From: a virus
DNA: 56,438 bases
IMG/VR virus record: IMGVR_UViG_3300037861_000214
Coordinates: 1-56,438 of that record
Reading direction: 5' to 3' (one strand)
The notes below the pieces were generated by a model. That model was given only the letters and a program-made list of their open reading frames with translations. It had not been told where the DNA came from and searched no databases. Shown here one piece after another: positions 1 to 56,100 of this stretch (position 1 is the first letter of the stretch; each line of letters opens with the position of its first letter). Both the position numbers and the translations under genes were made by a program.

Positions 1-603
1 TATTAAACCTTGAGGTAGGGAGGTCATTGGGGTATTTTCTAAATTAAGATTACCTTTTACTGATAAACCTTGAGGTAGACTGGTTATTTTAGTTCCAAAT
101 AAATTAAGATTACCTTTTACTTTTAAACCTTGAGGTAGGGAGGTTATTGGAGTATCATATAAATAAAGATCACCTCCTACTATTAAACCTTGAGGTAGGG
201 AGGTTATTTGGGTTTTAGCTAGATTAAGATAACCTCCTACTTTTAAACCTTGAGGTAGACTGGTTATTTTAGTTCCATATAAATAAAGAGAACCTCCTAC
301 TTTTAAATCTTGAGGTAGGGAGGTTATTGGGGTATCTCTTAAATAAAGATCACCTCCTACTGTTAAACCTTGGGGTAGTGAGGTTATGGGGGTATTACTT
401 AAATAAAGATCCTTTCCTACTGTTAAACCTTGGGGTAGGGAAGTTATGGGAGTGTTGGATATATCTAAATTACCTTGGCTCCCATCCTTCATGTATTGTT
501 GAATTTTCTTTTGAGTAGCAATTAAAAAATTCTTAGAGCGTTCTTCTTTGGAACGTCTAGGGACTAGGATTTTATTTTCTAGTAGGTCTATTAGTTTTAT
601 CAT
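1..603 (-). CDS. LRR-like repeat protein with MIKLIDLLE leader, partial at left edge
   Basis: Reading from an ATG at 603-601, the frame stays open to the left edge, so the C-terminus is missing (at least 201 residues). It starts MIKLIDLLENKIL, followed by a basic segment (RRSKEERSKN) and a predicted helix ending KDGSQG. At least eight 20-residue repeats of the form xLxLxxTxITSLPQGLxVGG follow. It is the sixth member of the paralogous array to its right. Its ATG overlaps the stop of the next gene (ATGA), suggesting translational coupling. Function is unknown. The repeat suggests a solenoid binding surface, and the leader resembles a T4 capsid-targeting peptide (inference). Confidence 0.85.
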   Translation of the reverse strand, partial: MIKLIDLLENKILVPRRSKEERSKNFLIATQKKIQQYMKDGSQGNLDISNTPITSLPQGLTVGKDLYLSNTPITSLPQGLTVGGDLYLRDTPITSLPQDLKVGGSLYLYGTKITSLPQGLKVGGYLNLAKTQITSLPQGLIVGGDLYLYDTPITSLPQGLKVKGNLNLFGTKITSLPQGLSVKGNLNLENTPMTSLPQGLI

Positions 604-1256
604 TGTGTTTTCATAATAATATCACCTTTTACTCCAGGTACCATTTGTTTAATTTGTTCTTTAGTATACTTTTCAGACATAGGTGTATTAATTAAATAAA
701 GATTACCTCCCACTGTTAAATCTTGGGGTAGAAAGGTTATTTTAGTTCCATATAAATAAAGAACACCACCTACCATTAAACCTTGAGGGAGGGAGGTTAT
801 TGAGGTTTTAGTTAAAAATAAACTTCCTCCTACTGTTAAGCCTTGAGGAAGGGAGGTTGTTTTAGTACCACCTAAATCAAGATAACCTTTTACTATTAAA
901 TCTTGAGGGAGGGAGGTGATTTTGGTATCTGATAAATTGAGATAACCTTCTACTTTTAAATCTTGAGGGAGGGAGGTTATAGGGGTATTACCTAAATGAA
1001 GACCACCTCCCACTGTTAATCCTTGAGGTAGGGAGGTTATTGAGGTACCACTTAAATTAAGATTACCCCCTACTTTTAAATCTTGAGGGAGGGAAGTTAT
1101 GGGAGTGTTGGATATATCTAAATTACCTTTACTTCCATCCTTTATATACTGTTGGATTTTCTTTTGGGTGGCAATTAAATAATTCTTAGAGCGTTCTTCA
1201 GGGGAACGTCTTGTAACAAGAATTTTGTTTTCTAAGAGATCTATTAATTTTATCAT
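600..1256 (-). CDS. LRR-like repeat protein with MIKLIDLLE leader (218 aa)
   Basis: The first ~44 residues are nearly identical to the other paralogues (MIKLIDLLENKILVTRR...). Seven full 20-residue SLPQxLxVGG repeats and a capping half-repeat follow, then a conserved C-terminal segment (YTKEQIKQMVPGVKG). Consensus positions barely change, while the x positions in xLxLxxT differ from repeat to repeat. The C-terminus diverges (DIIMKTQ) from the usual xIYL. Its ATG overlaps by one base the stop of the 1256-2005 gene (TAATG). Function is unknown; a ligand-binding solenoid is the simplest structural reading. Confidence 0.9.
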   Translation of the reverse strand: MIKLIDLLENKILVTRRSPEERSKNYLIATQKKIQQYIKDGSKGNLDISNTPITSLPQDLKVGGNLNLSGTSITSLPQGLTVGGGLHLGNTPITSLPQDLKVEGYLNLSDTKITSLPQDLIVKGYLDLGGTKTTSLPQGLTVGGSLFLTKTSITSLPQGLMVGGVLYLYGTKITFLPQDLTVGGNLYLINTPMSEKYTKEQIKQMVPGVKGDIIMKTQ

Positions 1257-2005
1257 TATGAAATTCCTATAATATCGGTATATTCTTTTATATTACCCTT
1301 TGAAATTTGTTTATCTAACCCATCATACCCATCAATTTTTCCATTATCTAATACCGCCAAAGCAACAACTACTAAATTCTTCCAGGTTTTTGGAAATTTA
1401 TCTTGAAGTTGTTTTAACATTTGCTCTGATTTTACTTTAATATAATAAAAAGTTACATTATTTGTATAGTAATAATCATTAAAGTGATCGGGGGCTTTAT
1501 AAGTTGTACACCATGAGGAATCTTTTCCACCATCACTACAGTCTCTAAATGCAAATTGGGATAATCCAAGCTTACGGGATGCCTCATGGGTATGAGGAGT
1601 CATTATTAGTAGGTCTGCAGTGTCTACTACCGTATCGTAATCTGATTCTAGGTCTTTGGTAGATACATTTTCTCCTGAGTTATTAATGCCATCAACTTCA
1701 TCTTGTAAATCTTTAAATAATTTGAATTGATATACATCTTTAGTTTTTGCTTTACCTTTTTCTAGAAATGTATTAAATTCTTCAATTGTGTTTCGTAGCT
1801 CATCTAAATCAGTAACTTGTTTATTAACCCATTGTTTTGCCATCCAACCTACATACTTTCGGGTTGGTGATGGGTCTATATCAATTAAAGCTTTTAGTTC
1901 GTCTTGGGTTAATTTACCTGAGTTGACATACTGTTTTGCCTGTTTTACGTTTTCTAAAATTGAATGTTTGTTTTCAATTAGAAGTTTTGGATTGTTAAAT
2001 TTCAT
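1256..2005 (-). CDS. Phage protein with SWCT motif, inserted in the LRR array (249 aa)
   Basis: I do not recognise a named domain. The N-terminus (MKFNNPKLLIENKHSILEN) contains two [LI]-[IL]-E sites like those in neighbouring leaders. Residues ~20-60 hold a helical segment ending DPSPTRKYVGWMAKQW, which I recall, without being able to check, from hypothetical proteins of other large phages. A compact C-terminal region has a DCSDGG...SSWCTTY motif (W165, C166), a Tyr-rich stretch and a YYIKV strand, which could be an active site. It sits between LRR-like paralogues and is preceded by a remnant of an LRR start. Candidate packaged cargo protein. Confidence 0.8.
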   Translation of the reverse strand: MKFNNPKLLIENKHSILENVKQAKQYVNSGKLTQDELKALIDIDPSPTRKYVGWMAKQWVNKQVTDLDELRNTIEEFNTFLEKGKAKTKDVYQFKLFKDLQDEVDGINNSGENVSTKDLESDYDTVVDTADLLIMTPHTHEASRKLGLSQFAFRDCSDGGKDSSWCTTYKAPDHFNDYYYTNNVTFYYIKVKSEQMLKQLQDKFPKTWKNLVVVALAVLDNGKIDGYDGLDKQISKGNIKEYTDIIGIS

Positions 2006-2017
2006 TTTGTTATTTTA

Positions 2018-2032
2018 TATTAGTTTTATCAT
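2018..2032 (-). repeat. Recombination scar: first five codons of an LRR paralogue
   Basis: On the minus strand the leader of the 1256-2005 gene contains ATGATAAAACTAATA, the first five codons (MIKLI) of the LRR paralogues, but the frame does not continue. An identical 15-base remnant lies at 2944-2958. In both cases the flanking bases towards the upstream LRR stop also match. This is what is expected if the unrelated gene entered, or the array recombined, just inside the start of a paralogue. Confidence 0.7.
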
Positions 2033-2039
2033 TATATGT

Positions 2040-2567
2040 TTATAAATATATACTACCTTTTACTCCAGGCACCATTTGTTTAATTTGTTCTTCACTATAT
2101 TTTTTGGAAAGTGGGGTATTAGATAAATCAAGAAAACCTCCTACTTTTAAATCTTTAGGTAGGGTGGTTATTTCAGTATCATATAAATAAATACCACCTC
2201 CTACTGTTAAACCTTGTGGTAGGGAGGTTATTTTAGTATTAGCTAGATTAAGAGTACCTCCTACTGTTAAACCTTGAGGGAGGGAGGTTATTAGGGTGTT
2301 TTGTAAATCAAGGTAACTACCTACTTTTAAACCTTGAGGGAGGGAGGTTAATTTAGTACCCATTAAATTAAGATCACCTCCTACTGTTAAGCCTTGAGGT
2401 AGGGAGGTTATTGGGGTATTTCTTAAATCAAGATCACCTTTACTCCCATCCTTAATGTATTGTTGAATTTTCTTTTGAGTAGCAATTATATAATTCTTAG
2501 AGCGTTCTTCAGGAGAGCGTCTAGGGACTAGTATTTTATTTTCTAAGAGATCTATTAGTTTTATCAT
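2040..2567 (-). CDS. LRR-like repeat protein with MIKLIDLLE leader (175 aa)
   Basis: Leader MIKLIDLLENKILVPRR, helical linker, then five full 20-residue repeats and a cap, ending YSEEQIKQMVPGVKGSIYL. It is one of the two shortest paralogues. Copy number differs between neighbours (5, 5, 7, 7, 9 and at least 8 repeats) in whole 60-nt units, consistent with unequal recombination. Its ATG overlaps the stop of the 2564-2938 gene (ATGA-type overlap of 4 nt). Function is unknown. Confidence 0.9.
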   Translation of the reverse strand: MIKLIDLLENKILVPRRSPEERSKNYIIATQKKIQQYIKDGSKGDLDLRNTPITSLPQGLTVGGDLNLMGTKLTSLPQGLKVGSYLDLQNTLITSLPQGLTVGGTLNLANTKITSLPQGLTVGGGIYLYDTEITTLPKDLKVGGFLDLSNTPLSKKYSEEQIKQMVPGVKGSIYL

Positions 2568-2938
2568 TTTACAATTTTAAAGTTTTTACCTTTATATTTT
2601 TCTTCTTTTGCTTTAGATAATGCTTCTTCTTCAGATCTTGCTTTTACCATAATATAGTCATCATCATAATTATCGTCTCTATATACCCAGTATTGTACCT
2701 CATATTCTTTTTCCTCTGATTCGTTTAAATTATTAAAATTTAATTCAGTAAGAGAGGATGCAATAGAAAATCTTAATAGGGATTTATCCCTAGGTGTTTG
2801 GAAGTAGTCTGGGAAGTCATTTGTTAGTTGATTATAAATAATGTTAACCTTCTGTTTGGCTTTTAAATCTTCATCGCTCATATTGCTCTCTAAAATACGA
2901 TTAGTATTCCAAGAATGTACATCAAAATTATCTTTCAT
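2564..2938 (-). CDS. Small acidic protein with internal LNE site (124 aa)
   Basis: Not recognised. The N-terminus (FDVHSWNTNRILESN) includes an ILE site. A helical region runs to residue ~70, followed by NNLNESEEKEYEVQYW, where LNE (71-73) marks a boundary to an acidic beta-rich domain (YRDDNYDDDYIMVKARSEEEALSKAKEE). The LNE boundary matches the linkers of the polyvalent protein at 5486-7939, so I infer it may be processed in the same way. The gene interrupts the LRR array and carries an LRR start remnant just upstream (2944-2958). Confidence 0.8.
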   Translation of the reverse strand: MKDNFDVHSWNTNRILESNMSDEDLKAKQKVNIIYNQLTNDFPDYFQTPRDKSLLRFSIASSLTELNFNNLNESEEKEYEVQYWVYRDDNYDDDYIMVKARSEEEALSKAKEEKYKGKNFKIVK

Positions 2939-2943
2939 AGTGT

Positions 2944-2958
2944 TATTAGTTTTATCAT
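2944..2958 (-). repeat. Recombination scar: second remnant of an LRR start
   Basis: Same 15-base MIKLI-coding remnant as at 2018-2032, lying in the short leader of the 2564-2938 gene. The ~30 bases between this remnant and the upstream LRR stop codon are identical in both places (TATTTATAAACATATA then ATG). Confidence 0.7.
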
Positions 2959-2965
2959 TATATGT

Positions 2966-3733
2966 TTATAAATATATACTACCTTTTACTCCAGGTACCA
3001 TTTGTTTAATTTGTTCTTTAGTGGATTTTTTAGAAAGGGGTGTATTTCTTAAATCAAGAGAACCTCCTACTGTTAAACCTTGAGGTAGGGTGGTGATTTT
3101 AGTATTATATAAATAAAGATCACCTCCTACTGTTAATCCTTGAGGTAGGGAGGTTATTTCACTATTATTTAAATAAAGACCACCTCCTACTTTTAAGCCT
3201 TGAGGTAGGGAGGTTATTGGGGTACTATTTAAATCAAGATCACCTCCTACTATTAAACCTTGAGGTAGGGAGGTTATTTCAGTATCATATAAATAAAGAT
3301 AACCTCCTACTTTTAAATCTTGAGGTAGGGAAGTTATTTTAGTACTATTTAAATCAAGATAACCTCCTACTGTTAAGCCTTGGGGTAGGGTAGTTATTAA
3401 TGTACCCCCTAAATAAAGATCACCCCCTACTTTTAAATTATTAGGTAGGGAGATTATTTTAGTCCTAAATAAATCAAGAGTACCTCCTACTGTTAAATCT
3501 TGTGGTAATGAGGTTATTGGGGTACTATTTAAATTAAGATCACCTCCTACTTTTAAACCTTGAGGTAATGAGGTTATTGGGGTGTTTTTTAAATTAAGAC
3601 CACCTTTACTTCCATCCTTCATGTATTGTTGAATCTTTTTTTGAGTAGCGATTACATAATTCTTAGAACGTTCTTCAGGGGAACGTCTTGTAACAAGAAT
3701 TTTGTTTTCTAGTAAATCTATTAATTTTATCAT
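2966..3733 (-). CDS. LRR-like repeat protein with MIKLIDLLE leader (longest, 255 aa)
   Basis: The longest paralogue, with nine full 20-residue repeats plus a cap. An in-frame ATG eight codons upstream (3757) would add MKYIYKNK, but that lies inside the end of the preceding gene, and the conserved MIKLIDLL start at 3733 is shared by every paralogue, so I use 3733. Repeat variation is concentrated at the x positions of xLxLxxT (DLNLNS, TLDLFR, DLYLGG, YLYLYD, GLYLNN). The C-terminal cap is STKEQIKQMVPGVKGSIYL. Confidence 0.9.
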   Translation of the reverse strand: MIKLIDLLENKILVTRRSPEERSKNYVIATQKKIQQYMKDGSKGGLNLKNTPITSLPQGLKVGGDLNLNSTPITSLPQDLTVGGTLDLFRTKIISLPNNLKVGGDLYLGGTLITTLPQGLTVGGYLDLNSTKITSLPQDLKVGGYLYLYDTEITSLPQGLIVGGDLDLNSTPITSLPQGLKVGGGLYLNNSEITSLPQGLTVGGDLYLYNTKITTLPQGLTVGGSLDLRNTPLSKKSTKEQIKQMVPGVKGSIYL

Positions 3734-3740
3734 TTTATTT

Positions 3741-4388
3741 TTATAAATATATTTCACCTTTTACTCCAGGTACCATTTGTTTGATTTGTTGTATAGAGTA
3801 TTTTTTAGAAAGGAGTGTATTAATTAAATCAAGATAACCTCCTACTGTTAAACCCTGAGGTAGGGTGGTGATTTTGCTCCCATATAAATTAAGATTACCT
3901 CCTACTTTTAAATCTTGAGGTAGGGAGGTTATTGGGGTATCTCTTAAATAAAGACTGCCTTCTACTTTTAATCCTTGAGGTAATAAGGTAATAGGAGTAT
4001 ATGATAAATAAAGATCACTTCCTACCGTTAATCCTTGGGGTAGTGAGGTTATTGGGGTACTAGTTAAATAAATATAACCTCCTACTTTTAAACCTTGAGG
4101 TAGGGAGGTTATTGAAGTATCTCTTAAATCAAGAAAACCTCCTACTGTTAAGCCCGGAGGTAAAAAGGTTATTTTAGTATTACCTAAATCAAGAGAACCT
4201 CCTACTGTTAAACCTTGAGGGAGAGCGGTTATTGGGGTATTTCTTAAATCAAGAGTACCTTTACTTCCATCCTTCATGTATTGTTGGATTTTCTTTTGAG
4301 TAGCGATTACATAATTCTTAGAACGTTCTTCAGGAGAGCGTCTAGGGACTAGTATTTTATTTTCTAAGAGATCTATTAATTTTATCAT
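3741..4388 (-). CDS. LRR-like repeat protein with MIKLIDLLE leader (215 aa)
   Basis: Leader MIKLIDLLENKILVPRR, seven full 20-residue repeats and the standard cap (YSIQQIKQMVPGVKGEIYL). One repeat has LPPGL for LPQGL, and several have FLP or LLP for SLP. Its ATG overlaps the stop of the 4388-4915 gene, and its own stop lies 7 nt before the start of the 2966-3733 gene. Function unknown; same family as its neighbours. Confidence 0.9.
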   Translation of the reverse strand: MIKLIDLLENKILVPRRSPEERSKNYVIATQKKIQQYMKDGSKGTLDLRNTPITALPQGLTVGGSLDLGNTKITFLPPGLTVGGFLDLRDTSITSLPQGLKVGGYIYLTSTPITSLPQGLTVGSDLYLSYTPITLLPQGLKVEGSLYLRDTPITSLPQDLKVGGNLNLYGSKITTLPQGLTVGGYLDLINTLLSKKYSIQQIKQMVPGVKGEIYL

Positions 4389-4915
4389 TATATATAAATT
4401 TCACCTTTCACACTAGGTACCATTTGTCTAATTTGTTCTTCACTATATTTTTTGGAAAGTGGGGTACTAGTTAAATCAAGATCACCTCCTACTGTTAAAT
4501 CTTGAGGTAGGGAGGTTATTTTAGTCCAAAATAAATTAAGATCACTTCCTACTTTTAAACCTTGAGGTAGGGAGGTTATTTTGCTCCCAGATAAATCAAG
4601 AAAACCTCCTACTGTTAAACCTTGAGGTAGGGAGGTTATTGGTGTATTTCTTAAACTAAGAAAACCTCCTACTGTTAAACCTTGAGGTAGGGAGGTTATT
4701 TTAGTCCCAAATAAACCAAGATAACCTCCTACTTTTAAACCTTGAGGTAATGAGGTTATTGGAGTACCTACTAAACCAAGATCACCTTTACTACCATCCT
4801 TTATATACTGTTGGATTTTCTTTTGAGTAGCAATTACATAATTCTTAGAGCGTTCTTCAGGGGAACGTCTAGGGACTAATATTTTGTTTTCTAAGAGATC
4901 CATTAATTTTATCAT
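4388..4915 (-). CDS. LRR-like repeat protein with MIKLMDLLE leader (175 aa)
   Basis: The first LRR paralogue in transcription order. Leader MIKLMDLLENKIL, then five full repeats and a cap (YSEEQIRQMVPSVKGEIYI). Variable positions hold bulky residues in places (DLNLFW, YLGLFG), consistent with a diversified contact surface. It follows directly after the zinc protein at 4917-5489 with no gap, so the array probably shares a transcript with the polyvalent gene upstream. Confidence 0.9.
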   Translation of the reverse strand: MIKLMDLLENKILVPRRSPEERSKNYVIATQKKIQQYIKDGSKGDLGLVGTPITSLPQGLKVGGYLGLFGTKITSLPQGLTVGGFLSLRNTPITSLPQGLTVGGFLDLSGSKITSLPQGLKVGSDLNLFWTKITSLPQDLTVGGDLDLTSTPLSKKYSEEQIRQMVPSVKGEIYI

Positions 4916-4916
4916 T

Positions 4917-5489
4917 TTATTTTTTTAAACTGTTTAAATACTCAATTACTGATTCAACATGTTCATTTACCTGGTCTTCATTTATGTTGCCTCTCCATTT
5001 TTCTATATCTCCTGCTTCTGTGATGAAATTGTTATTTTCCGATAATTTATCTTTAACGTATTCTTTAAAATCTCTAATTTTATTATCTATTTCACTATTA
5101 ATTATATCACGTTTATATTCTTCAAACTTACCTGTTCTTTTCAATTCATCTTCAAACTTAATAACACATTTAAAGCAGGTTTTATGTATTTTAAAAAATT
5201 CTTTATCATTTCTATTATTCATTAAATCTTTACAATTTGGACAAAATAAAGGCATATTGTGTAATTTTTTTGCTTTGTCTAGTTTTGTAATGTTTTGTTT
5301 AATACCATCAATAATTGTCCAAGAACGGTCATCTGCTTCCCAAACGTCACCCTCTTTATAAAATTTTTCTGCTGGGGTATATCCCACGCTGGTTTCTGTT
5401 TTATCGCCATACTTGCCCTTAACAAGATTTCTCATTCTTTCTACATCTCTCTTTTCAAACTCCCGGTTTAAACCTGCTATCTTACTCAT
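4917..5489 (-). CDS. Zinc-binding protein with CPNC...CFKC (190 aa)
   Basis: Contains two Cys pairs, CPNC (83-86) and CFKC (105-108), spaced as a single zinc ribbon, flanked by charged helices. The C-terminal part is helical with possible processing sites FITE-A (ITE 156-158) and NINE-D (INE 169-171). I recall similar hypothetical zinc proteins in T4-like phages but cannot name a function. It overlaps the stop of the polyvalent gene by 4 nt and abuts the first LRR paralogue, placing it in the proposed cargo operon. Confidence 0.8.
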   Translation of the reverse strand: MSKIAGLNREFEKRDVERMRNLVKGKYGDKTETSVGYTPAEKFYKEGDVWEADDRSWTIIDGIKQNITKLDKAKKLHNMPLFCPNCKDLMNNRNDKEFFKIHKTCFKCVIKFEDELKRTGKFEEYKRDIINSEIDNKIRDFKEYVKDKLSENNNFITEAGDIEKWRGNINEDQVNEHVESVIEYLNSLKK

Positions 5490-7939
5490 AAGCTTAATTT
5501 TTGTAACTGTTTTATTGTATCTTGTGTATTAATATGTAATATTCCAATCCCCCCTGCAGCTTCCCACTGATCTATATTAACTTGTCGATCGTCTATTAAT
5601 ATTGAATCCGGTGTTGCTAGTTCTTGTTTTTGTTTAGCATAACGTAATATTAATTTTGTACCGGGTATTTTATGTTTTACCCACACATGTTTTCCTATTC
5701 TAGAGGATTCATCACGTGATGGGGCTGATAGTAATAGTGGGGTATATGGTTTTAGATAATCCCATAATCTTTGCCCATCAGGCATCCATTTTAAACCTGC
5801 CCAAAAACCCACACCTGCTACTTTAATAGGATCCCAAAAATCATCTCCTTTTTTAAATTCACCTTTTAAATCAACACCAGTTAATTCTTCATAGCCTCGT
5901 TCAAAGTCGGCTAATACTCCGTCCATGTCACAATAAATTTGATATTTAGTTACCTCTTCTGCTATTTCACGAGCAAATTGATTTAAACCAAATGGGTCTT
6001 TACCTAATTTATCATTAAATCCTGACGTGTGTTTATATATCTTATTTTCTTTATTTAATACTTTTCCTCTAGCAACTACCCCTAATACTTTTCTGGCATT
6101 GTCGTCTAAATCGGATGGTTTAATAATTTTAGCCGGTATTGTTTTGGCTTTTGATCTTAGTGCTTTTTGTGCTCTATGGTTACCATCTAAAATCCATAGT
6201 ATACTTCCATCCTCATCCGCCATAATTAAGATAGGGTATTGTTTGGAGACTTCAACTTGTGCTATTCTTTCTATTTCGGATGGGTTATTGCCCCAATTTA
6301 AAACTATTTTAGATAATTTTTCTGTAGGGTAATTTTTTTGAGGGATGTTTTTAGTTAAATCTAACACATCCTGTAGGGTTAAAGTACCTCCTTCGAAATC
6401 AATCCATTCAGTATCTGCTCCTATTTCATTTAAACTAGTAACTTCTTCTCCCTCTTTACTAATAGATTTAGGAGCAAAAACTAAATAATCGGCTCTTCCC
6501 TCATCGGGGAGGAATGCACCATCATATCCCATATTTATTAATTCTCCTATTGAATATTTATCATATTCATCCCAACTAGCCGGATTTTTAAGAGTTATAT
6601 ACCTTGTTAAGATATACTTTCCTCCTGAAGCTCCTGCTGTTCTATTTTTAAGAGAATCTAAATCATCAGTAAACCAAAAACCATCCCATGCATAATCCAA
6701 AGAAAAATCGTGAAATTTAGAATCTGTGCTGTGATATACTTTAAGGTTTTTGATTGGAGCTATATTTTCATTTAAACTAGATACTTCTTCTCTATCTATA
6801 CTATCAGTCCAATTCCTAAATGTCATTGTACCTTTTAAATTAGCTTCTGCTTCAATATCGTTTAAATGGTCGTCTTCCATTGTATTTGTACCACCTATAT
6901 CGCCTAACCTATTTTCTAAGTTTTGGATATGGTGTATCATTTCATGTGCAAATGAGCGTACTATATCCTTAGGATGGCGCCCTTCAGTGTATAATGTGAT
7001 GGTGTTGTTGTTCGGGTTATAATACGCGGTTTTACCGAGAAAATCCCGGGCATTGTCACTATCCCCATCTACAAATTTAACTTTAGGTAAAGGTTCAATA
7101 TTATAACCTTTATCTAACATATGTTGGGTTAATTGCTTTATTTTATCTAACACATCAATATCTTTAGAATATGAAGCATTTTCGTTTAAAAAAGGAGTAT
7201 TATCATGGTAACATTTATGACAAAGAAATAAATCATCCCCACCATCTTTTATGTTCCAAGACCAACTACAGTTATCACATTCTATCTTTTTCCCAACAAT
7301 AGCTTCTTTTACCTTATTATAGCCAGACCCATAAGGAGCAGCTTTTCCATCTTCGGGTTTGTTTTCTTGTATTTTATTTGCTACCCAATTGTATACTTGC
7401 TCCTTTTCTTCATCCGATAGTTCTTTTGGTAGAGAAGGGATAAATTTTTCTAATGATATTTTAGAAGCATTTCTTGCAGCCGTACCCGATATACCTCCTT
7501 GAGTCACTATAACTCGTAAATCCATATTAGGGTATTTGTCTAGTGAAGTGGTTCGACTTGATATGTCTTTAAAATCTTCATCATTACCTTCCCTAGCTCC
7601 TATAATCCATAGTACTTCCTCTTCAGGGTTTTCTTTAGCATAATTATATATAGCTTGAATTGGTGGTTTAGGGCTTAATTTAATATTAACTTTAATAGAT
7701 AAGTATTGTTTATATAAATCCCATATCAGTAAAGATTCTGATGGTGAAATGCCATCTCTATCTTTACCTCCTATTAATATAATAAATTCATCTATATTAG
7801 GGTTTTCTTGTAAAGCTTGTTTAACTACTTCAAAATGACCTAAGGTAGGGGGTTTAAAACCCCCACCATATACCGCTACTACTCTCCTTTTTTCTTCTTC
7901 AGGAAGTAAGTGTTTTATCATTTCATTAACTAAACTCAT
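5486..7939 (-). CDS. Polyvalent protein: nucleotidyltransferase / Zn ribbon / HEXXH peptidase / ADP-ribosyltransferase-like / ParB-like / HAD
   Basis: 817 residues with at least six modules in order. (1) Residues 20-165: cytidylyltransferase-like fold with GGGFKPPTLGH and ISGTAAR (150-156). (2) Zinc ribbon C221, C224, C240, C243. (3) Zinc metallopeptidase with HEMIH (332-336) and a downstream acidic ligand candidate near 363-365. (4) ADP-ribosyltransferase-like module at 400-495 (VYHSTD...GFWFTDD...YITLKNP). (5) ParB/sulfiredoxin-like module at 510-625 with DGNHRAQKAL. (6) HAD phosphatase/5'-nucleotidase-like module at 666-817 with DMDGVLADF. LNE tripeptides sit at three module boundaries (251-253, 389-391, 503-505). 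The architecture fits the 'polyvalent protein' class described for phages and conjugative elements, whose multi-enzyme effectors enter the recipient with the DNA. Individual activities are inferred from motifs. Confidence 0.85.
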   Translation of the reverse strand: MSLVNEMIKHLLPEEEKRRVVAVYGGGFKPPTLGHFEVVKQALQENPNIDEFIILIGGKDRDGISPSESLLIWDLYKQYLSIKVNIKLSPKPPIQAIYNYAKENPEEEVLWIIGAREGNDEDFKDISSRTTSLDKYPNMDLRVIVTQGGISGTAARNASKISLEKFIPSLPKELSDEEKEQVYNWVANKIQENKPEDGKAAPYGSGYNKVKEAIVGKKIECDNCSWSWNIKDGGDDLFLCHKCYHDNTPFLNENASYSKDIDVLDKIKQLTQHMLDKGYNIEPLPKVKFVDGDSDNARDFLGKTAYYNPNNNTITLYTEGRHPKDIVRSFAHEMIHHIQNLENRLGDIGGTNTMEDDHLNDIEAEANLKGTMTFRNWTDSIDREEVSSLNENIAPIKNLKVYHSTDSKFHDFSLDYAWDGFWFTDDLDSLKNRTAGASGGKYILTRYITLKNPASWDEYDKYSIGELINMGYDGAFLPDEGRADYLVFAPKSISKEGEEVTSLNEIGADTEWIDFEGGTLTLQDVLDLTKNIPQKNYPTEKLSKIVLNWGNNPSEIERIAQVEVSKQYPILIMADEDGSILWILDGNHRAQKALRSKAKTIPAKIIKPSDLDDNARKVLGVVARGKVLNKENKIYKHTSGFNDKLGKDPFGLNQFAREIAEEVTKYQIYCDMDGVLADFERGYEELTGVDLKGEFKKGDDFWDPIKVAGVGFWAGLKWMPDGQRLWDYLKPYTPLLLSAPSRDESSRIGKHVWVKHKIPGTKLILRYAKQKQELATPDSILIDDRQVNIDQWEAAGGIGILHINTQDTIKQLQKLSL

Positions 7940-9781: not shown

Positions 9782-10579
9782 TTAGGATAAAAATTGTTTT
9801 ATTTTAGATTGTGCTTCTTCTTTAGACATTGAATTGGATATAAAGTTATTAACTACATTATCACTTAATAAATCTTGTATTTCAGCACTCATTTCTACCT
9901 TCTGTTGATCAGATCTTTTTTGTTGTGAGGGTGATTTTTCTTTAGTACCTGTTGGATTAAATGGGGTAAGGTATTTGCTTATAATGTCATTAATATCTTT
10001 TAGTTTATTGTTATCTAACGTATTAGACACCATAACATAGTTGTCTCCAAATAATTCTTTATAAGGAAGATAATTTTTAGTTACATCTAACCAGGTACGC
10101 ATTACTATAGCAGGGGCTAGACTTCTATCTTCACCTCCTGATTTTTCGAATCTATCTTGATTTTGTTGTAATGATCTTTCTAGATCTGTATAGACATAGA
10201 GCATCATAACATTATACCCCGTTTCTTCTAATTCTAATTTTAATATGTTGGTTTGTTTATAAGAGGCAGCTGTTCCATCTAATATAAAAGATTGTTTACC
10301 TTCAATTGTAGATGCAATATCTCCTTTAAAATCTTTATTAGCCGCAGCCATAGATATAGCTTGTTGGCTTCTTTCTTCAGGTGTTGCATTTTTTAAATCT
10401 AGGGAGATATTTGACTTTTTAAGTAAGTCAATGTATCTATTATCTAAGTTTAATATTTTCAAACCACCTAGATCTAAACCTTTTAAAATAGAACCCTTAC
10501 CAGCACCCGGTGCTCCAGCTAATATAATAGCTTTGGGGTTACCCTGTACTTCTTTTAGTAATTGTGATAAACTTATCAT
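9782..10579 (-). CDS. P-loop kinase (zeta-toxin/adenylate-kinase-like) with targeting-like leader (265 aa)
   Basis: Begins MISLSQLLKE, a leader of the same pattern as the LRR proteins, immediately followed by a P-loop (GAPGAGKG, 22-29). The rest fits a small-molecule or nucleotide kinase: LDNRYIDLL, an LDGTAAS segment and Arg-rich lid regions (DRFEKSGGEDRSLAP). The C-terminal ~60 residues are a charged linker and helix (PSQQKRSDQQKVEMSAEIQDLL). The substrate cannot be read from sequence. It overlaps the next gene (10576) by 4 nt. It may be another injected effector (inference). Confidence 0.75.
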   Translation of the reverse strand: MISLSQLLKEVQGNPKAIILAGAPGAGKGSILKGLDLGGLKILNLDNRYIDLLKKSNISLDLKNATPEERSQQAISMAAANKDFKGDIASTIEGKQSFILDGTAASYKQTNILKLELEETGYNVMMLYVYTDLERSLQQNQDRFEKSGGEDRSLAPAIVMRTWLDVTKNYLPYKELFGDNYVMVSNTLDNNKLKDINDIISKYLTPFNPTGTKEKSPSQQKRSDQQKVEMSAEIQDLLSDNVVNNFISNSMSKEEAQSKIKQFLS

Positions 10580-11109
10580 ACTGTAGGTTTTCCGAACATC
10601 ATTTTTATATATTTTTTTCCCCCTAAATATCTACTATACGACCCATCGTCATACATTTGAATTTCTTTTCCTTTCAGGGCTTTTTCAATTGTCTCTTTAT
10701 TTGTAACTTGTGTCACTTTTGCTTTTAATAGAATATCTGAGACTCTTCCAGATGCCTCTATGTAGTTATTGTTTTTGCCTAGTTGAATTATAGTGTGTAA
10801 TAAAGTTGATCTTTTAGCCGAGTTAGTACCATCATGTCCTATACCTACGTGTTTAATACCACCCGATCTGTTTTTGGTTATAGTAACTGCATCTATTTCG
10901 GGGTCATCATCTAAATTTATAACATTATAATCAGACCCCGCTAAATCACTTACGGTTTTATAATTGGGGTGACCACCTATATCACTATAAGCAGTTTGTA
11001 TAAGATTAAATATATCAGACTCTAAGTCCTTTAGTTCACTAGAAGAAAGGGGTTGCCATGTATTTTTAGGCAAATTTAATTCATTTAGTAAATTAAGTAG
11101 TTTAATCAT
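10576..11109 (-). CDS. Possible GNAT-like acetyltransferase with MIKLLNLLNE leader (177 aa)
   Basis: Starts MIKLLNLLNELNLPKNTW, again the M-I-K-L-x-x-L-L-x-E pattern. The body has NLDDDPEIDAVTITKNR, then GIKHVGIGHDG, a lysine/arginine turn and IEASGRVSDIL, an order reminiscent of GNAT-like domains in other phage proteins, but no firm acetyl-CoA motif is visible. Call is tentative. It overlaps the kinase gene by 4 nt and follows the esterase gene by 2 nt. Confidence 0.6.
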   Translation of the reverse strand: MIKLLNLLNELNLPKNTWQPLSSSELKDLESDIFNLIQTAYSDIGGHPNYKTVSDLAGSDYNVINLDDDPEIDAVTITKNRSGGIKHVGIGHDGTNSAKRSTLLHTIIQLGKNNNYIEASGRVSDILLKAKVTQVTNKETIEKALKGKEIQMYDDGSYSRYLGGKKYIKMMFGKPTV

Positions 11110-12110: not shown

Positions 12111-12890
12111 TTATGCTTTTCTTTTAGAGGTAGTTTGAAATGTTGAAGTATAAGGTGTTAATTTTGGGTTTTCTAAATGAAATAAGGCCTTAACATGGTT
12201 AAATATATCTAAATTTTCTTTTTGAGTGCGAGGTGATTCATATACCTCCCAATTTTTACCCTTTAAACGTTTTCCTGATTTATCTTCACCTCTAGATTTA
12301 GACTTTAACCATAAAACCCCTACACGATCAATTTTCTTACCAAAACATTCTTCGTAACACTGAGCATATACCGCTCCTTGTAAATCGTATGTTGTTTGTA
12401 AGTGGTTTGATGTTTTAAAGTCAATAATCCAACGTTCGGTTTTACCATTAAATTCCAACTCACATACTAAGTCACATGTTCCTGCTATTTGGAGGATGTC
12501 GGAGAATAGGTGGACTTCCGCCTCTATTAGGGTTGGGTTATAGGTTTCCCAAAAGTCAACAAATCTAAGAAACATTTGCCAAACATGAGCAGGCATCTTA
12601 GGGTTACCATTTTCTTTTAAAAATGAAATTTCTTTACCACTCAGCCACTCTTCAATCATTTCATGAACTAGGGTACCTTCTTCAGCTGCTTTTTTAACAA
12701 TCCACTCAGCACTATATCCTACTTTTTTAAGCCAATCTTCAAAATACTTACCTTTAGGGTAAAAACTTAAAACATGGGTTACAGAAGGATAATATTTACT
12801 GTTACGTCTATAATATCTAGAATCAGGCATTGTAACTTGTTGGTAATCACTTGATATTTCTAGTAATCTTTTGTACGATTTTTTTATCAT
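12111..12890 (-). CDS. PD-(D/E)XK nuclease, RecB/Cas4-like (259 aa)
   Basis: Motifs in order: PSVTHVLSF near the N-terminus, GTLVHEMIE (H76), an EAE strand (123-125), AGTCDLV (D140), the catalytic IIDFKTS (D157, K159) and QGAVYAQ (Q171). These are the conserved elements of the RecB-type exonuclease branch of the PD-(D/E)XK superfamily. Likely a DNA end-processing exonuclease in phage replication or recombination. Its ATG overlaps the primase stop by 4 nt, so the two are coupled. Confidence 0.85.
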   Translation of the reverse strand: MIKKSYKRLLEISSDYQQVTMPDSRYYRRNSKYYPSVTHVLSFYPKGKYFEDWLKKVGYSAEWIVKKAAEEGTLVHEMIEEWLSGKEISFLKENGNPKMPAHVWQMFLRFVDFWETYNPTLIEAEVHLFSDILQIAGTCDLVCELEFNGKTERWIIDFKTSNHLQTTYDLQGAVYAQCYEECFGKKIDRVGVLWLKSKSRGEDKSGKRLKGKNWEVYESPRTQKENLDIFNHVKALFHLENPKLTPYTSTFQTTSKRKA

Positions 12891-13822
12891 ATTGATAGTT
12901 TTTGTTCCATTAAATCATAGTAAGTTAATGGAAGGGTTTTTTGAATTAATTTTGTAAAACCCTTAAAGCCTAAATCGCTCGGGTCCTTATCTTGCATGTC
13001 TACAAGATAAACTTCTTTACCTTCTGCCATTAATTTTTCACAGAATTTTAAGGCTTGTTTTATTGCGTCTTTATCTAATGCTATATAAATTTTATCTACT
13101 ACTGATGTTACTATTTTTTTCATTAAGTTATTCTGTATGTTTTTCCCTAATAAAGGAATTACATTTCTTTTTATGGCTAGGGCATCAAATAACCCTTCAC
13201 ACAATATAATAGGTACATTCCAATTAATCATATGTTCATTAGGTATAATATCCCTTGACACTTGAGGATTTCTGTAGCTAACGTATGGGTCTTTTTCAAA
13301 TGAGCGAGCAATAAAGTAATTTAATTTACCATCTACATCATAGGTAGGAATTATTATCATGTTTTTATAAAACCCTGTTTTACAATAACCTATATTATAC
13401 TTAAGTATATCATACTTATCTACATTTCTATTATTTAAATATGAAAGAGCATGTCGTGCCATGATATCATTAAGATCAACATTGTGTAAACTAATATATT
13501 CCTCAGGCATAATAACGTGTAGGGGATCTACCTTTTCATGGTAGTTTATGTAGTTTACTTCTTTACTTAGTGTTTTAGCTTCATTAATTTTATCTTGTGA
13601 TGCTCCCGCTTGTCTAAATAACAAGCTAATTGATTTGCCTTTTTTCCCACATACCCAACAATGCCAAGGATTATTTCCATCGGTATTTTCAGAAAAGTTA
13701 ATTTCTAGTTTGGGTTTATGGTGACTGCAATAAGGACAATTATAAGCCATATTACCCCTAGCAGTCTTTTTACCAGTACCCAATATTGAATTAACTAATG
13801 TGACTAATAAATGGTTAATCAT
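12887..13822 (-). CDS. DnaG-type DNA primase (311 aa)
   Basis: N-terminal zinc-binding domain with C29-x2-C32 and C55-x2-C58, a central RNA-polymerase-like segment (IIIPTYDVDGKLNYFIAR) and a TOPRIM domain with LCEGLFDALA (E209), ALDKDA (D250, D252) and DKDPSD (D278, D280). The length is near that of T4 gp61 and T7-type primase domains. It makes RNA primers for lagging-strand synthesis. The partner helicase is not obvious in the window; the RadA-like ATPase is not a convincing replicative helicase. Confidence 0.9.
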   Translation of the reverse strand: MINHLLVTLVNSILGTGKKTARGNMAYNCPYCSHHKPKLEINFSENTDGNNPWHCWVCGKKGKSISLLFRQAGASQDKINEAKTLSKEVNYINYHEKVDPLHVIMPEEYISLHNVDLNDIMARHALSYLNNRNVDKYDILKYNIGYCKTGFYKNMIIIPTYDVDGKLNYFIARSFEKDPYVSYRNPQVSRDIIPNEHMINWNVPIILCEGLFDALAIKRNVIPLLGKNIQNNLMKKIVTSVVDKIYIALDKDAIKQALKFCEKLMAEGKEVYLVDMQDKDPSDLGFKGFTKLIQKTLPLTYYDLMEQKLSI

Positions 13823-16307: not shown

Positions 16308-16658
16308 TTAATTACTTGTGATATTAAAACGTACCTGCTTATGCTCGGTGTTCAATCTGTAATTTAATATACCGCTAAACATCATTGTGTCATCTTCGGA
16401 AAAATTACAGGCAATTAGCTCGTATAAATCTGTTTCTTTAAAGGTTGGTTTGATACCGTTGTAAAAAGCTGTTAGGGCATCTGACTTCTCTAATGTAGTT
16501 GGTTGCTCTCGTTCTTCTTTAAGCCTTTTTAACAAAGCTTCTTTTTTAACGGCATCATCTTCTTTTTGAGAAACCATTAATTGTTTTTCTGCTTCTGTTA
16601 GTTGAATCGCAACTTGCTCTAGCCAAACTCCTTCTATTGTTGATTGAAATTGTTTCAT
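16308..16658 (-). CDS. Hypothetical protein downstream of a fibre gene (116 aa)
   Basis: Helical and charged in the middle (EAEKQLMVSQKEDDAVKKEA), with a beta-like C-terminus (MMFSGILNYRLNTEHKQVRF). It follows the collagen/solenoid fibre gene by 11 nt, a position where fibre chaperones or assembly proteins are often encoded. No recognisable family. Confidence 0.65.
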   Translation of the reverse strand: MKQFQSTIEGVWLEQVAIQLTEAEKQLMVSQKEDDAVKKEALLKRLKEEREQPTTLEKSDALTAFYNGIKPTFKETDLYELIACNFSEDDTMMFSGILNYRLNTEHKQVRFNITSN

Positions 16659-16669
16659 AATTTTATTAT

Positions 16670-18283
16670 TTATTGATTATTTTGATTGTTATTTCCGTCT
16701 ATGCAAAGAACAACACGTCCCGCCCCTGATTTGGTTATGAAAGTACCTGACGTCAAACGGCAATAGTAAAGTTTACCTGATAGTGTACCTGTTATTGATG
16801 AATTGAAATTTCTACCACCAAAAGACTTTTCTCCACCTCGACAATTACTAAATACACCTGATGCTGTACCGCCACCACCACCAAATGAATATTCCGCTGC
16901 TGTGCAATTAATAAATGTACCCGATGCTGTACTACTACTATTAAGCGCCCCAAATGAATTATTTCTTCCTATGCAATTAGTAAATGTACCTGATGCTGTA
17001 ACGCCGCCAAATGAATTTTCCACTGCTATGCAATTAGTAAATGTACCTGATGCTGTACCGTTATTACCGCCAAACGAACCACCACCTGACGTACAATGAC
17101 TAAATACACCTGATGCTGTAGAGCCAATAGCATTAATGCCAAATGAACCATAACCACCTGTGCAATTAATAAATGTACCAGATGCTATATTACCAAAAGA
17201 AGCATCGCTGCCTGTACAATTTATAAAAGTTCCTGATGCCGTACCGTAGGTACCAAAAGAATTATTTCCTCCTTCACAATCAATAAATGTACCCGGTACG
17301 ATAATGCTAATACCGAATGAATTAGCACCACCTTTACAATTTTCTAATTTTAAGGCATTTAAATTGCTTGCTATTGTGAATCGTTTGTCTAAAACGTCAA
17401 CACCTTTTACAAAAACATTGTTTGCTGTGATTTCAATAGTACTTACTCCATTAAAAACAATACTTCTATTTCCGTCTAATGAAACTAAATCAACGTATTG
17501 CGTGCCCATGATAAAGTCCCCGTTTTCAAAATTGTAGTTTCCCGGTGCTGCAATTACGGTTGATTTTACAATTTCCGGAGTGTAAACACGAACATAGCCT
17601 CCATTATATGTAAACGCTGTCGGAAATTCAACCACATATCGAAAAGATCCCATTTCCATAACGACTTCTCCTATCATATCAACCCCTTCAACATTAAAAG
17701 TATAAGATTGTCCTTGAATTAAAACAGGTAAATATCCACTAAAATCATAAAAAATAAGTGCAGTTGGTGTGTCTTGGCTTGGAGCATCATAAGGTGCAGA
17801 AAGAGCTTGCGTTGTTACAACTTTTGTAATTGCTAAATCATAAGCTGCTTGCAATTCTATTGCATTCTCAATGTCTGTCCCATTTGCTTGTACAAATACG
17901 TATTGAGTACCTAATAGACCTGTTGCACCGGTTGAACCAGTTGTTCCTTGAGTACCTGTTGCTCCTATAGTTCCAGTTGTTCCTTGAGTACCAGTTGATC
18001 CTGTTGAACCATTTGGTCCAGTTGGTCCAGTTAGTCCAGTTAATCCTCTAGTACCTTGAGTTCCTGTTATACCTTGAGCTCCTGGGGAACCTGTTGCTCC
18101 GGTTAATGATAGATTAGTTCTAAATTTAAGATTTCCAGAATTGTCTAACACTACTATTTTATGTTCGTTGCTTCCTTCGGATATAGTTGTTAATTTAGTA
18201 TCTATAGTATCTGCCTTTTGTAATCTACTCTCAATTCCCAATCTTACTGAAGTTAGGGAAATACCCGCCCACTTTATTGCCAT
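16670..18283 (-). CDS. Collagen-like fibre with GTFxNCxG beta-solenoid repeats (537 aa)
   Basis: N-terminal module with [20 protein letters not shown] (shared with the 18560-21709 fibre), about 25 Gly-x-y collagen-like triplets ([16 protein letters not shown]), then a globular part, and from residue ~330 eight or so repeats of [10 protein letters not shown]...SFG, in which Cys, Asn and Gly recur every ~20 residues as in a right-handed beta-solenoid. Probably a trimeric tail fibre or tip adhesin. The Cys ladder is unusual for an intracellularly assembled fibre. Confidence 0.85.
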
Positions 18284-18301
18284 AATTTTATATTTTAAAT
18301 G

Positions 18302-18511
18302 TTATATAATACAATTATTAATGTCCAATGCTTGTTGCGTGGTTAACCCATTAACAAACCAATCTTTAGCCATCATAACTTTTAAATGTTCTATATTTCT
18401 GTTAAGAGTTTCTTGATCTTCTAGATTATTATAGATAAGATTAACAGAATCAAATGCCGCTAATATTGATCTTTGTGTTTCTTCTTCGGGTGTTAGTTCT
18501 ATATGTTCCAT
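18302..18511 (-). CDS. Small protein between two fibre genes (69 aa)
   Basis: MEHIELTPEEETQRSILAAF followed by helices and NGLTTQQALDINNCII. Not recognised. It lies between two collagen-like fibre genes (gap of 48 nt of 10-bp tandem repeats upstream). Fibre-assembly helper is possible by position only. Confidence 0.6.
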   Translation of the reverse strand: MEHIELTPEEETQRSILAAFDSVNLIYNNLEDQETLNRNIEHLKVMMAKDWFVNGLTTQQALDINNCII

Positions 18512-18559
18512 AATTTTTATTAATTTTTATTAGTTTTTATTAGTTTTTATTAGTTTTTA
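18512..18559. repeat. 10-bp tandem repeat (TTTTTATTAR, about 5 copies)
   Basis: Five near-perfect 10-bp units fill the whole gap between the stop of the large fibre gene and the start of the 69-residue gene. The first two copies have TTAA where the last three have TTAG. Confidence 0.8.
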
Positions 18560-21500
18560 TTATAATTGAAGCCATACATTATCGGGTTTAAACCTAATGA
18601 TTACCCCATCACCTGTATCTATTATATTATGTCCTATTAACCTAATGTATTCTGCTTCACCGGTTGGGATATCCTCTGTAACTTGCCCCCCTTGAGGAGA
18701 AATATATAGAGGTTTTCCTGGTGTTGCTGAGCCCATGTCTGTGTGATTAATGGTCATTATTATACCATCTAATAATACAGCAAAAGGATTACCAGTTGTA
18801 GTATCATTTAAGGAAATACCTAGTAATTGCTCACCAGCAGCATTTGTAGCTTTAGCCAAATACCACTTTCCATCTGTGGCTAGGTATACTAATTCTCCTT
18901 TTGCTATCGTTTCTGCATGAGTGAGACCTGTTAAAGTTTGCCCGTTATACTTAAAATTAGATTCCCAATCCGATTTTATGTTTGGGAATGATGTTATTGA
19001 ACTTATACCTTCGGCTGGGGTGTAATTAAGGGTAGATGGGACTACGCTACCCGCCAATAATGACGCTCCACTAAATGAGAATTTATCATTTATTTTAAGT
19101 GAGCCAGCAGTACCAGATGTTGTAATTTCTACATCACCCCTTAAAGTAGTTTTTGTTATACTGGTATTACCCAACACCACACTATTACTCCCCCTACCGT
19201 CGGCACTATTACCTATTACAATTTGGTTTGTTTCACTATTATTTGCTGCTCTTGTGTTTGCACCAATAAAAATAGAGGTGTTTGTTACAGTTAGGTTTGC
19301 ATTTGATTGAACAGCACTTCTACCCGCATTTACACCTAAAGCAACATTATCACCCCCCCCATTATTATTTCTTAAAGAATTAACTCCTATACTCGTATTA
19401 GAATTGCCTGATGTATTAAAGTTTAAAGAACCTTTTCCAACTGCGACATTTGCAGCTCCTACTGTATTAGAATATAAAGCATATATACCATTTGCAGTAT
19501 TATCAGCACCAGTTGTGTTATAAAATAAGGCCTCAACTCCGTTTGCTGTGTTACTAACTCCTGTTGTGTTTGCAAACAAAGCGTTTATTCCATTTGCTAT
19601 GTTATCATTTCCGGTTGTGTTTGAACGCAAAGCATTTACTCCGTTTGCTGTGTTAAAATTTCCTGTTGTGTTGTTTCGCAAAGAATCTCTACCATTTGCG
19701 GTGTTAGCACCTCCTGTTGTGTTTGCAGACAAAGCGTTTTGACCAGTTGCTGTGTTGTTAGTTATATTACCGCCACCACGCCCTACTGTCAAACCGTTTG
19801 CGTTTATGTCCGAGCCTGCTGTAACCGTACCGCTAAATTTACCATTACCTACTACATCTAGTTTTTCTGTGGGTGCTGGTTTGTTTATGCCTACGTTGCC
19901 TGACCCTGAAACTGTCATTCTTTCCGTTGGTGTAGTTCCCGTGGCAAAGATAATATCTCTTAATATATTACTTCTTGTTTGCAAAACAAGGTGATTACCT
20001 TCGGCTGGTCTAATACCACCTGCCCCTCCTATTGTTGTAAAAATCCTTGATTCTGGCGAAGATGAAACTAAGTCATTTCTATTTTCAATAACTAGATTTG
20101 AACCACCAATTCCTATTACTATATTTCCATTTGCAATTATATTATTTGAAAATGTTTTAACCCCCGCAACCGTCTGCGCACCTATTAATTTTACAACATC
20201 GCTTAATCCACTCCCAGAACCTATAAAGTTAGCAGCCGTAACCGTACCACTAAACTTACCGTTTCCTACAACGTCAAGTCTTTCTGTTGGGTTGGTTTGG
20301 CCTATTCCTACGTTGCCGTTAGTTGCAATAAACAGTCTACTTGCACCGTCTGTATATTGACCGTAGTTAGCACTACCACCAGCAACACCATTTGCAACTA
20401 AAATATTAAATGTAGAGCCTACGTTTGCAACCTGCGCGGAACGAAGCAAAAAACCTGACGCATCTCCTGGGTCTCTCCTACCTCCTGAAATAAATAAATC
20501 TCGGCTTTGGCTTAAATTATAAACGTTGTTGCCAAAAAAACCAGTTCCCTCAACTGTTAATTTAGCGTTTATAGAAGTAGTTCCTATTCCTACGAAGCCT
20601 GTAGGAGTAATTCTCATTATTTCATTAGATACTATTGTTGCTCCAGCAACACCAAATACAGAAGTATTAAAAACAATTCCTCCTGAATTTGTACCGTCCA
20701 ATAAAATCCTAGACGAAAACCCGTTGTTTTTATAAGTAGCTTGATAAAAATCTCCAGCTATATTTGTCGATAAAGCTAACTGAGGAAGCACCAACCTTGA
20801 TTGTATTGAATTACCATTTGCCGATTCTAAAGAGAAATTATTAGGTGTTATTGATGGTATTACATTAAAACCCACATTCCCATTATCAAAAATAGAACTA
20901 TTTCCTAAAGTGGTTGGTGATGTAAATTTAGGTATAAAATTAAGAGTACCCGATTGGACACCCGAAGATCCTTGGGTTCCTTGTATACCCGTTGCTCCTT
21001 GAGTACCAGTTGCTCCTGTGGTTCCCGTAGTTCCTTGAGTACCAGTTGCACCTGTTCCTCCTGTAGTTCCGGTTGCTCCTTGAGTACCAGTTGCACCTGT
21101 TCCTCCAGTTGTTCCTTGAGTACCAGTTGCTCCTGTTGTTCCGGTTGTTCCTTGAGTTCCAGTTGTTCCTGTTGCTCCTGTAGTTCCGGTTGCTCCTTGA
21201 GTACCTGTTGCTCCTGTTGCACCGGTTGAACCCGTTGTTCCTTGCACACCAATAGTTCCGGTTGCTCCTTGAGTACCAGTTGCTCCTGTTGAACCCGTAG
21301 TTCCTTGAGTACCAGTTGAACCAGTTGCTCCTGTTGAACCCGTAGTTCCTTGAGTACCAGTTGAACCAGTTGCTCCTGTTGAACCCGTAGTTCCTTGAGT
21401 ACCAGTTGAACCCGTTGCTCCTGTTGTTCCGGTTGTTCCTTGAGTTCCAGTTGAACCCGTTGCTCCTGTTGTTCCGGTTGTTCCTTGAGTTCCAGTTGTT

Positions 21501-51135: not shown

Positions 51136-51191
51136 GAAATGGAAAATAAGTGTACATAAAATGGTAAGGTTGTCCCCCATTCCCTATCTCC

Positions 51192-51255
51192 TTATTCCCT
51201 TATTCCCTTATTCCCTTATTCCCTTATTCCCTTATTCCCTTATTCCCTTATTCCC
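51192..51255. repeat. Perfect 8-bp tandem repeat (TTATTCCC) x 8
   Basis: Eight perfect consecutive copies, GGGAATAA on the coding strand, in the untranslated space between 51117 and 51331. Flanking TATC/CCCTTATT fragments look like decayed units. Confidence 0.95.
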
Positions 51256-51294
51256 TATCTTCTTAACCCTTATTTCCTAATATTTCGGTATAGC

Positions 51295-55371: not shown

Positions 55372-55728
55372 TTACCACCTTAGATTTCTTATTGTTATCG
55401 TAACATCGGTAATCTCGCCCACCGGTATTTTAGCTTTCGATTTAATGCCCATCATGTTGTGTGTAAACATTTTAATATATGTTTTGCTGATGTCACCCAC
55501 ATTCATAGTTCCTCTTAATGAATTTATTTTATGTAGGGTTTTTACATGCATATATTTTTTATTACTAGATACTAGAAATATTTCCATCTCATAGTCAGTG
55601 GAATTATATCTAAACGACATTACATCTCCTTCATCCATAGTATCTGCTATCTTCTTAAACGATAATGGTGTTGGTAATGGGTTAAGACTTAACATATCTT
55701 GAGATGTATTTAATTGTTTGAATTTCAT
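55372..55728 (-). CDS. Hypothetical protein (118 aa)
   Basis: Beta-rich: MKFKQLNTSQDMLSLNPLPT, DVMSFRYNSTDYEMEIFLVS, IPVGEITDVTITIRNLRW. No domain recognised. It is 3 nt from the MORN-like gene upstream, so in the same operon. Confidence 0.65.
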   Translation of the reverse strand: MKFKQLNTSQDMLSLNPLPTPLSFKKIADTMDEGDVMSFRYNSTDYEMEIFLVSSNKKYMHVKTLHKINSLRGTMNVGDISKTYIKMFTHNMMGIKSKAKIPVGEITDVTITIRNLRW

Positions 55729-55731
55729 AAC

Positions 55732-56097: not shown

Positions 56098-56100
56098 AAC

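Follow-up and report, generated by a model that had tools for sequence, protein, structure and literature searches.

What use would a phage have for a set of leucine-rich repeat (LRR) proteins with constant ends and variable faces, and in which compartment would such proteins act? This question is raised by the first 4,915 nucleotides (nt) of the IMG/VR virus record IMGVR_UViG_3300037861_000214, a phage fragment of 56,438 nt that is referred to here, as a whole, as the window. The phage is contractile-tailed, with genes for a baseplate wedge, a primase, an exonuclease and a DnaB-like protein. The minus strand of positions 1-4915 carries six LRR genes, each built of a common N-terminus, whole units of 20 amino acids (aa) and a common C-terminal cap. 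The answer proposed here, which is regarded as evenly balanced when the whole chain is considered, is that the array may encode internal proteins of the T4 type, which would be targeted to the capsid, ejected, and able to bind host factors through their faces. The six genes have their start ATGs at 4915, 4388, 3733, 2567, 1256 and 603; a slash in a leader marks the predicted cleavage position.

4391..4915, minus strand: LRR gene g1, 175 aa, five clear units, leader MIKLMDLLE/N
3744..4388, minus strand: LRR gene g2, 215 aa, seven units
2969..3733, minus strand: LRR gene g3, 255 aa, nine units, modelled with AlphaFold
2043..2567, minus strand: LRR gene g4, 175 aa, five units
603..1256, minus strand: LRR gene g5, 218 aa, seven units
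1..603, minus strand: LRR gene g6, at least seven units, C-terminus beyond the record end

The N-terminus of about 44 aa (MIKLIDLLENKILVPRRSPEERSKNYxIATQKKIQQYxKDGSKG) hardly varies, and neither does the C-terminal cap (PLSKKYSxEQIKQMVPGVKGxIYL). Between them lie 5 to at least 9 units per gene with the consensus LxLxxTxITSLPQxLxVGGx, 20 residues long and with a period of exactly 60 nt. The C-terminus of g6 is unseen because the record, being a fragment, ends within this gene. Open reading frames (ORFs) and repeat analysis confirmed the six-gene array with shared ends and 60-nt steps that a preliminary description of this DNA had reported. The genes are not all contiguous, however, since two unrelated genes (1259-2005 and 2567-2938) are interspersed among them. 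The core SLPQxLxVGG, which had been called fixed, is indeed so in the window but not in the wider family, where Q and GG vary. The array is far beyond chance, as is evident from its Tandem Repeats Finder scores (307-708), 317 related viral stretches and the strong purifying selection on its scaffold codons.

An AlphaFold2 model of g3, based on an alignment of 17 sequences, reached a predicted local distance difference test (pLDDT) score of 91.4 and consists of nine regular LRR turns, in which every unit contributes two short strands, with a helix at both termini. This confident solenoid bears out the LRR-like fold suggested earlier. Residues 1-20 are of low confidence (51-68), as may be expected of a detachable tag. 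Foldseek and profile searches retrieved LRR proteins, namely the Vibrio polar flagellar LRR protein (8z5u, E = 4e-40 by sequence), the LRR domains of SspH1/IpaH and designed LRRs; variable lymphocyte receptors (VLRs) were weaker matches in both sequence and fold. Pfam scores (LRR_4/LRR_1/DUF5649) straddle the cut-offs. Judged by the model and these searches, the array proteins belong to the LRR fold, with LxLxx(N/T)xI strands.

The variation of the units is concentrated on one side of this predicted solenoid. When LxLxxTxI is aligned with the LRR core LxxLxLxxNxL, unit positions 20, 2, 4 and 5 correspond to the canonical concave positions x3, x5, x7 and x8, a mapping taken from the repeat pattern and the DSSP string, without coordinates. 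Positions 4, 20, 2 and 5 are the most variable among 340 units (entropy of 3.5, 2.8, 2.5 and 2.3 bits, respectively). The ratio of non-synonymous to synonymous change (pN/pS) was calculated over gap-free runs of matching units between contigs, with synonymous sites and counts pooled and no codon model. It is 2.48 at the concave positions (95% block bootstrap 2.04-2.95), 1.70 at positions 7 and 16, and 0.20 at scaffold positions. At an identity of at least 90%, the concave value is 2.43 (1.58-3.40), and the excess persists at 93% on few pairs. The predicted excess of non-synonymous change at surface x positions was thus found, and the concave face is probably under diversifying selection.

A second source of diversity is evident from G001, a record about 98-100% identical to the window over most matched 500-bp chunks. 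The LRR coding parts are only 81-94% identical, and G001 has eight LRR genes versus six in the window. The other breaks between the two records fall in the middle of a polyvalent-type gene, in a leader-bearing gene (10579-11109), in the tail-fibre region and at the right end of the window. In a comparison with the related locus L001, g2 and gene B correspond in register over units 2-6 (92-100%), g3 units 1-5 match gene A (95-100%) with later units matching other genes (best D, one G), and g4 units 1-3 match gene E (98-100%). Mapped in this way, unit by unit, blocks are seen to be swapped, and the arrays are mosaic in gene number, in repeat number and in their unit blocks. Repeat number, gene number and unit order therefore change between close relatives, as had been foreseen, and the mosaic array in a near-identical record, together with the concave pN/pS, supports the idea of a modular, recombining recognition repertoire. 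An origin by a diversity-generating retroelement was considered and is unsupported in the records searched: no RVT_1 reverse transcriptase was found in 15 of them, but these are fragments, and some variable codons look AAY-like. The tail-fibre region (16500-21500), which contains collagen-like triplet repeats and is unmatched or divergent in G001, is the other hypervariable part of the genome.

The clue to the compartment lies in the first residues. Each LRR gene of the window starts with MIK L(I/M)D LLE/N, and the motif [LI]xE is satisfied by LLE at residues 7-9 in all six. The prohead protease gp21 of T4 cuts after L/I-X-E, and the ten N-terminal residues of IPIII are enough for packaging (PMC9026906). 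The leader of g1 may serve as an example:

4889..4915, minus strand: leader codons M1 to E9 of g1, putative capsid-targeting sequence, expected to be cut after E9

Members of the LRR family differ in both the length and the sequence of what precedes ILVPRRS; nevertheless, [LI]xE with its E at residue 7-12 is kept in 32 of the 37 distinct leaders. In other families, the corresponding share is 18% at the N-terminus and 6-11% at internal positions. When the positions of [LI]xE were profiled over all ORFs, only weak peaks appeared, at residues 10 and 13, and a test of similarity to the LRR leaders with internal-offset and shuffle controls was used in place of this profile. At a score of at least 35, this test found 20 non-LRR families at N-termini, whereas four internal offsets gave 0, 0, 0 and 1 and shuffling gave 0.125 on average; at a score of at least 30, it found 26 versus 0-1 in controls. 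Nearly the same leader is thus borne by some 20-25 non-homologous families of related phages. The 20 are families, not independent origins, and include some of the set of genome G009 described below. Among the leader bearers are a Zeta-toxin-type P-loop protein, a SET-domain protein and DUF5824, and the same leader residues are encoded by different codons among unrelated genes.

In G009, nine proteins share leaders of the type MKSKDQxLLEEAY (30 similar pairs versus 0-2 at control offsets). They include an LRR protein whose body, past the leader, has 61% identity to g5, and a homologue (53%) of the 249-aa protein encoded within the window array. Elsewhere, these two bodies carry MIKLIDLLE and MKFNxxKLLIE, respectively, which suggests that the leader swaps as a genome-specific module while the bodies are kept. 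The same within-genome test found no clear excess in G008 and G004. A gp21-type protease (PF03420) and gp23 (PF07068) are present in three larger relatives (G003, G004 and G005). The N-termini of the relatives' own head proteins are MSLNSLLE/S for the major capsid protein, MRKLLIE/T for the protease and LLKE/A for the scaffold, and the starts of T4 precursors look alike (gp24 MAKINELLRE, gp22 MLKEQLIAE, gp21 MNEPQLLIE). The leader is thus probably a capsid-targeting sequence. This feature, which the preliminary description missed, points to the capsid interior rather than to a surface.

The nearest isolate by major capsid protein is Flavobacterium phage vB_FspM_immuto (68%, with the query taken from G005). 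Its leader-bearing proteins are gp069, gp076, gp077, gp082, gp083, gp087 and gp092, of which gp069, gp076, gp077 and gp092 share starts of the type M(E/A)(N)NFDLKKFLxENKL. A further N-terminal module, MKKQILNEEFRRMQKLAGIITE, stands on otherwise different proteins at 293-541, 12293-12856 and 12879-13643 of locus L013 and on immuto gp083. The paper of Nilsson et al. 2020 (PMC7077304) contains no virion proteomics and no mention of immuto.

Taken together, the proposal is as follows. The small, basic LRR proteins would be internal capsid proteins of a T4-like myovirus of the Bacteroidota type. Their leader of 9-10 residues (MIKLIDLLE/N) would draw them into the prohead core, where a gp21-type protease would cut it off after L/I-x-E, so that the mature solenoid of 17-26 kDa would be packaged and later ejected into the host with the DNA. 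There, host proteins would be bound by the concave faces; factors of restriction or defence, or targets of the takeover of the cell, are the most plausible candidates. The diversity of the repertoire would have two sources, namely recombination among genes and repeat units, as whole genes and in 60-nt steps, and selection that favours amino-acid replacement in the concave face. Entry into the prohead and cleavage are proposed from sequence logic and the T4 precedent; for ejection and host targets, which we infer, the precedent is T4 IPI, an inhibitor of a host restriction enzyme (PMC9026906). The internal proteins of T4 are basic and poorly conserved (PMC9026906), and the mature LRR proteins have a predicted isoelectric point (pI) of 9.4-9.7. 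The likeness to IPI, IPII, IPIII and Alt (PMC9026906) thus extends to a T4-like phage, a gp21-type protease (here in relatives), a leader of about ten residues ending in L/I-x-E, and small basic bodies that vary among relatives. The array, whose products would be packaged and ejected in the same way, differs in consisting of LRR solenoids, with up to eight paralogues and a diversified face. As far as the sequence goes, the LRR proteins are candidates for T4-type internal proteins. The more specific suggestion of a virion-delivered, recombination-diversified LRR library is put forward tentatively. In this view, several paralogues with different, positively selected faces would be loaded into every head and injected, so that a phage lineage would bring a changing panel of binders against host defence proteins to the start of infection.

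Several observations weigh against this proposal. In five of the 37 LRR leaders, the strict motif is absent from the residues tested (e.g., L077 LLNNK and L022 LKKNK), and ipI, as found in the T4 record, fits the short leader poorly. The window record has no head genes, and gp21 is seen only in relatives. A folded LRR would also need to pass through the tail tube. No LRR match was found in immuto, the nearest isolate. L124, L120, L089 and L128 represent a second LRR class, which starts with a different domain and shows no obvious leader. Edwardsiella phage Edno5 encodes a related hypothetical protein (AYP69195.1) of the same repeat type, with 47% identity but with other N- and C-termini and neither the leader nor the N-terminal domain, from a single gene near a repressor/Red region. 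As Edno5 is temperate and its LRR protein has no leader, LRR proteins of this kind can work outside a capsid-targeting system. Finally, pN/pS is distortable by the exchange of non-orthologous units.

The LRR proteins may instead act in the infected cell as decoys, inhibitors or adaptors against defences without ever being packaged, with the leader serving another purpose, such as localisation to the membrane or to replication sites, or translation initiation. Small soluble LRRs without a signal peptide would suit such a role, an arms race could drive diversification in any compartment, and the leader bearers include possible metabolic or nucleotide enzymes. This explanation is nonetheless rather unlikely. 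The leader is kept in its amino acids while its codons vary among unrelated genes, which argues against a DNA or RNA signal; moreover, it ends in a prohead-protease motif, resembles the phages' own head-precursor N-termini and appears to be swapped as a genome-specific module. Within the capsid, the proteins might be purely structural, filling or shaping the prohead core or condensing DNA, and their diversity might reflect recombination and drift rather than host binding. Basic pI, leader and the many similar genes would agree with this, but a variation concentrated on concave positions, with pN/pS well above 1 over a purified scaffold, and a gene number that varies widely, with none found in the nearest isolate, make it improbable.

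The preliminary description had compared the array to VLRs, which would imply an outward-facing repertoire for binding host surfaces or receptors. The comparison with lamprey and hagfish VLRs is apt for the LRR modules, the variable concave face, the invariant ends, the variable module number and the recombination; VLRs are also among the weaker PDB matches, and the tail-fibre regions are likewise hypervariable. Membership of the VLRs does not hold, however. The translated LRR ORFs contain no cysteine, and a signal peptide, cysteine-rich LRRNT/LRRCT caps and an anchor are absent from them, while the variation seen is that between phage genomes, whereas VLRs are assembled somatically, by gene conversion within an individual. 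As there is no secretion signal, as the leader would imply the capsid interior, and as the LRR genes lie outside the tail-fibre cluster (16.7-25.5 kb), there is only a slim chance that the array faces outward. It is hardly conceivable that the array is an artefact of metagenome assembly or a neutral, satellite-like repeat expansion. Loci L001 and L002 differ by one gene, and an exact 665-bp direct repeat (658-bp unit) is present only in L001; short-read assembly could create or collapse such a repeat, so that this difference could be real unequal crossing-over or an assembly effect, and it does not serve as main evidence. The window array, by contrast, contains no exact repeat of more than 58 nt, and repeat length therefore gives no reason to doubt its assembly. 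For the array as a whole, artefact and neutral expansion are refuted by the open frames and the purified scaffold, which indicate functional genes, and by similar arrays in dozens of contigs from different metagenomes.

A first scan found 29 related viral loci, and a profile scan extended these to the 317 stretches, of which 76 loci were retained. Loosely counted, the repeats number 2 to 17, and a contig carries up to 8 LRR genes, which is a lower bound. A scan of genome_contigs for a cellular home of the family gave 45 pattern matches but no relative, and no description of this family of phage LRR arrays was found in the open-access literature searched. Two LRR genes are fused in-frame in L016 (7977-9140), so that the N-terminal domain recurs in the middle of a 388-aa protein. 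L124 (5428-8859) has a six-gene LRR array with another N-terminal domain (KRIFEFLEEKE...PLTKEDLNVKGDL), which also occurs in L021, L071, L089, L120 and L128. Bacterial LRR proteins (8z5u, SspH1/IpaH/SlrP, Pfam LRR) have the same fold and the same 20-residue LP-type repeat. The array differs from them in being phage-borne, multi-copy and hypervariable, without a secretion system or a NEL ubiquitin-ligase domain: the ORFs end with the cap, and NCBIfam matches cover the LRR part only, far below cut-off.

The genes within and beside the array are the following.

1259..2005, minus strand: 249-aa protein inside the array, no family match, leader MKFNNPKLLIE/N
2567..2938, minus strand: protein of 124 aa lying within the array, weakly similar to DUF4288, N-terminus ending ...NRILE/S
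4920..5489, minus strand: Cys-rich protein of 190 aa next to the array, with 44% identity to immuto gp086
5489..7939, minus strand: 817-aa multidomain polyvalent-type protein, part of it matched by immuto gp088
9785..10579, minus strand: 265-aa P-loop (kinase-like) protein, leader MISLSQLLKE/V
10579..11109, minus strand: 177-aa protein, no assigned function, leader MIKLLNLLNE/L, largely unmatched in the near-identical G001

The 249-aa protein occurs in 18 ORFs of related loci (some of them the same contig twice), often adjoining LRR genes, and its SSWCTTYKAPDHFNDYYYTNNVTFYYIKVK stretch is strongly conserved. In L015, a 53% identical homologue bears the leader MKSKDQTLLEE instead. The AlphaFold model of the 249-aa protein is poor (pLDDT 56) and was left out of the fold searches. 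The 817-aa protein combines nucleotidyltransferase-like, ART-PolyVal (below cut-off), ParB-like (weak) and 5'-deoxyribonucleotidase domains with a HEMIH zincin-like motif. Because the middle of its gene (about 6001-6900) is almost unmatched in the otherwise near-identical G001, domain shuffling is suggested.

The LRR array lies beside a gene for a polyvalent-type protein, a class predicted to be packaged (PMC5512222). This neighbour has the typical domain mix, and in L023 (6465-9188) LRR units lie within a 908-aa nucleotidyltransferase-type, polyvalent-like protein; the LRR genes of the array, in contrast, are single-domain, and LRR is not named as a polyvalent domain in PMC5512222. The array occupies a slot that in immuto lies between gp086 and gp078 and directly precedes the terminase, portal, protease and capsid genes; the gene that follows the array in G001 is distantly homologous to immuto gp078. 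Other repeats lie elsewhere in the window. Tandem paralogous short ORFs with LHREDGPA-type repeats and a 369-bp direct repeat are found at 55375-56438 and form one family with 23 members across related contigs. Microsatellites occur at 51179-51256 (ATTCCCTT, about 10 copies) and at 18514-18562 (TTTTTATTAG, about 5 copies).

The new element of the proposal is the predicted location of the LRR repertoire in the capsid interior. If it is true, the capsids of T4-like phages that infect environmental Bacteroidota would contain a combinatorial repertoire for protein recognition. It would parallel the variable internal proteins known from T-even phages, on a scaffold specialised for diversifiable binding. 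The old question of what makes internal-protein genes so variable could then be tested by binding assays, paralogue by paralogue. The shared leader ending in L/I-x-E would also offer a simple sequence rule for recognising injected phage effectors in metagenomes, where most of them are annotated as hypothetical.

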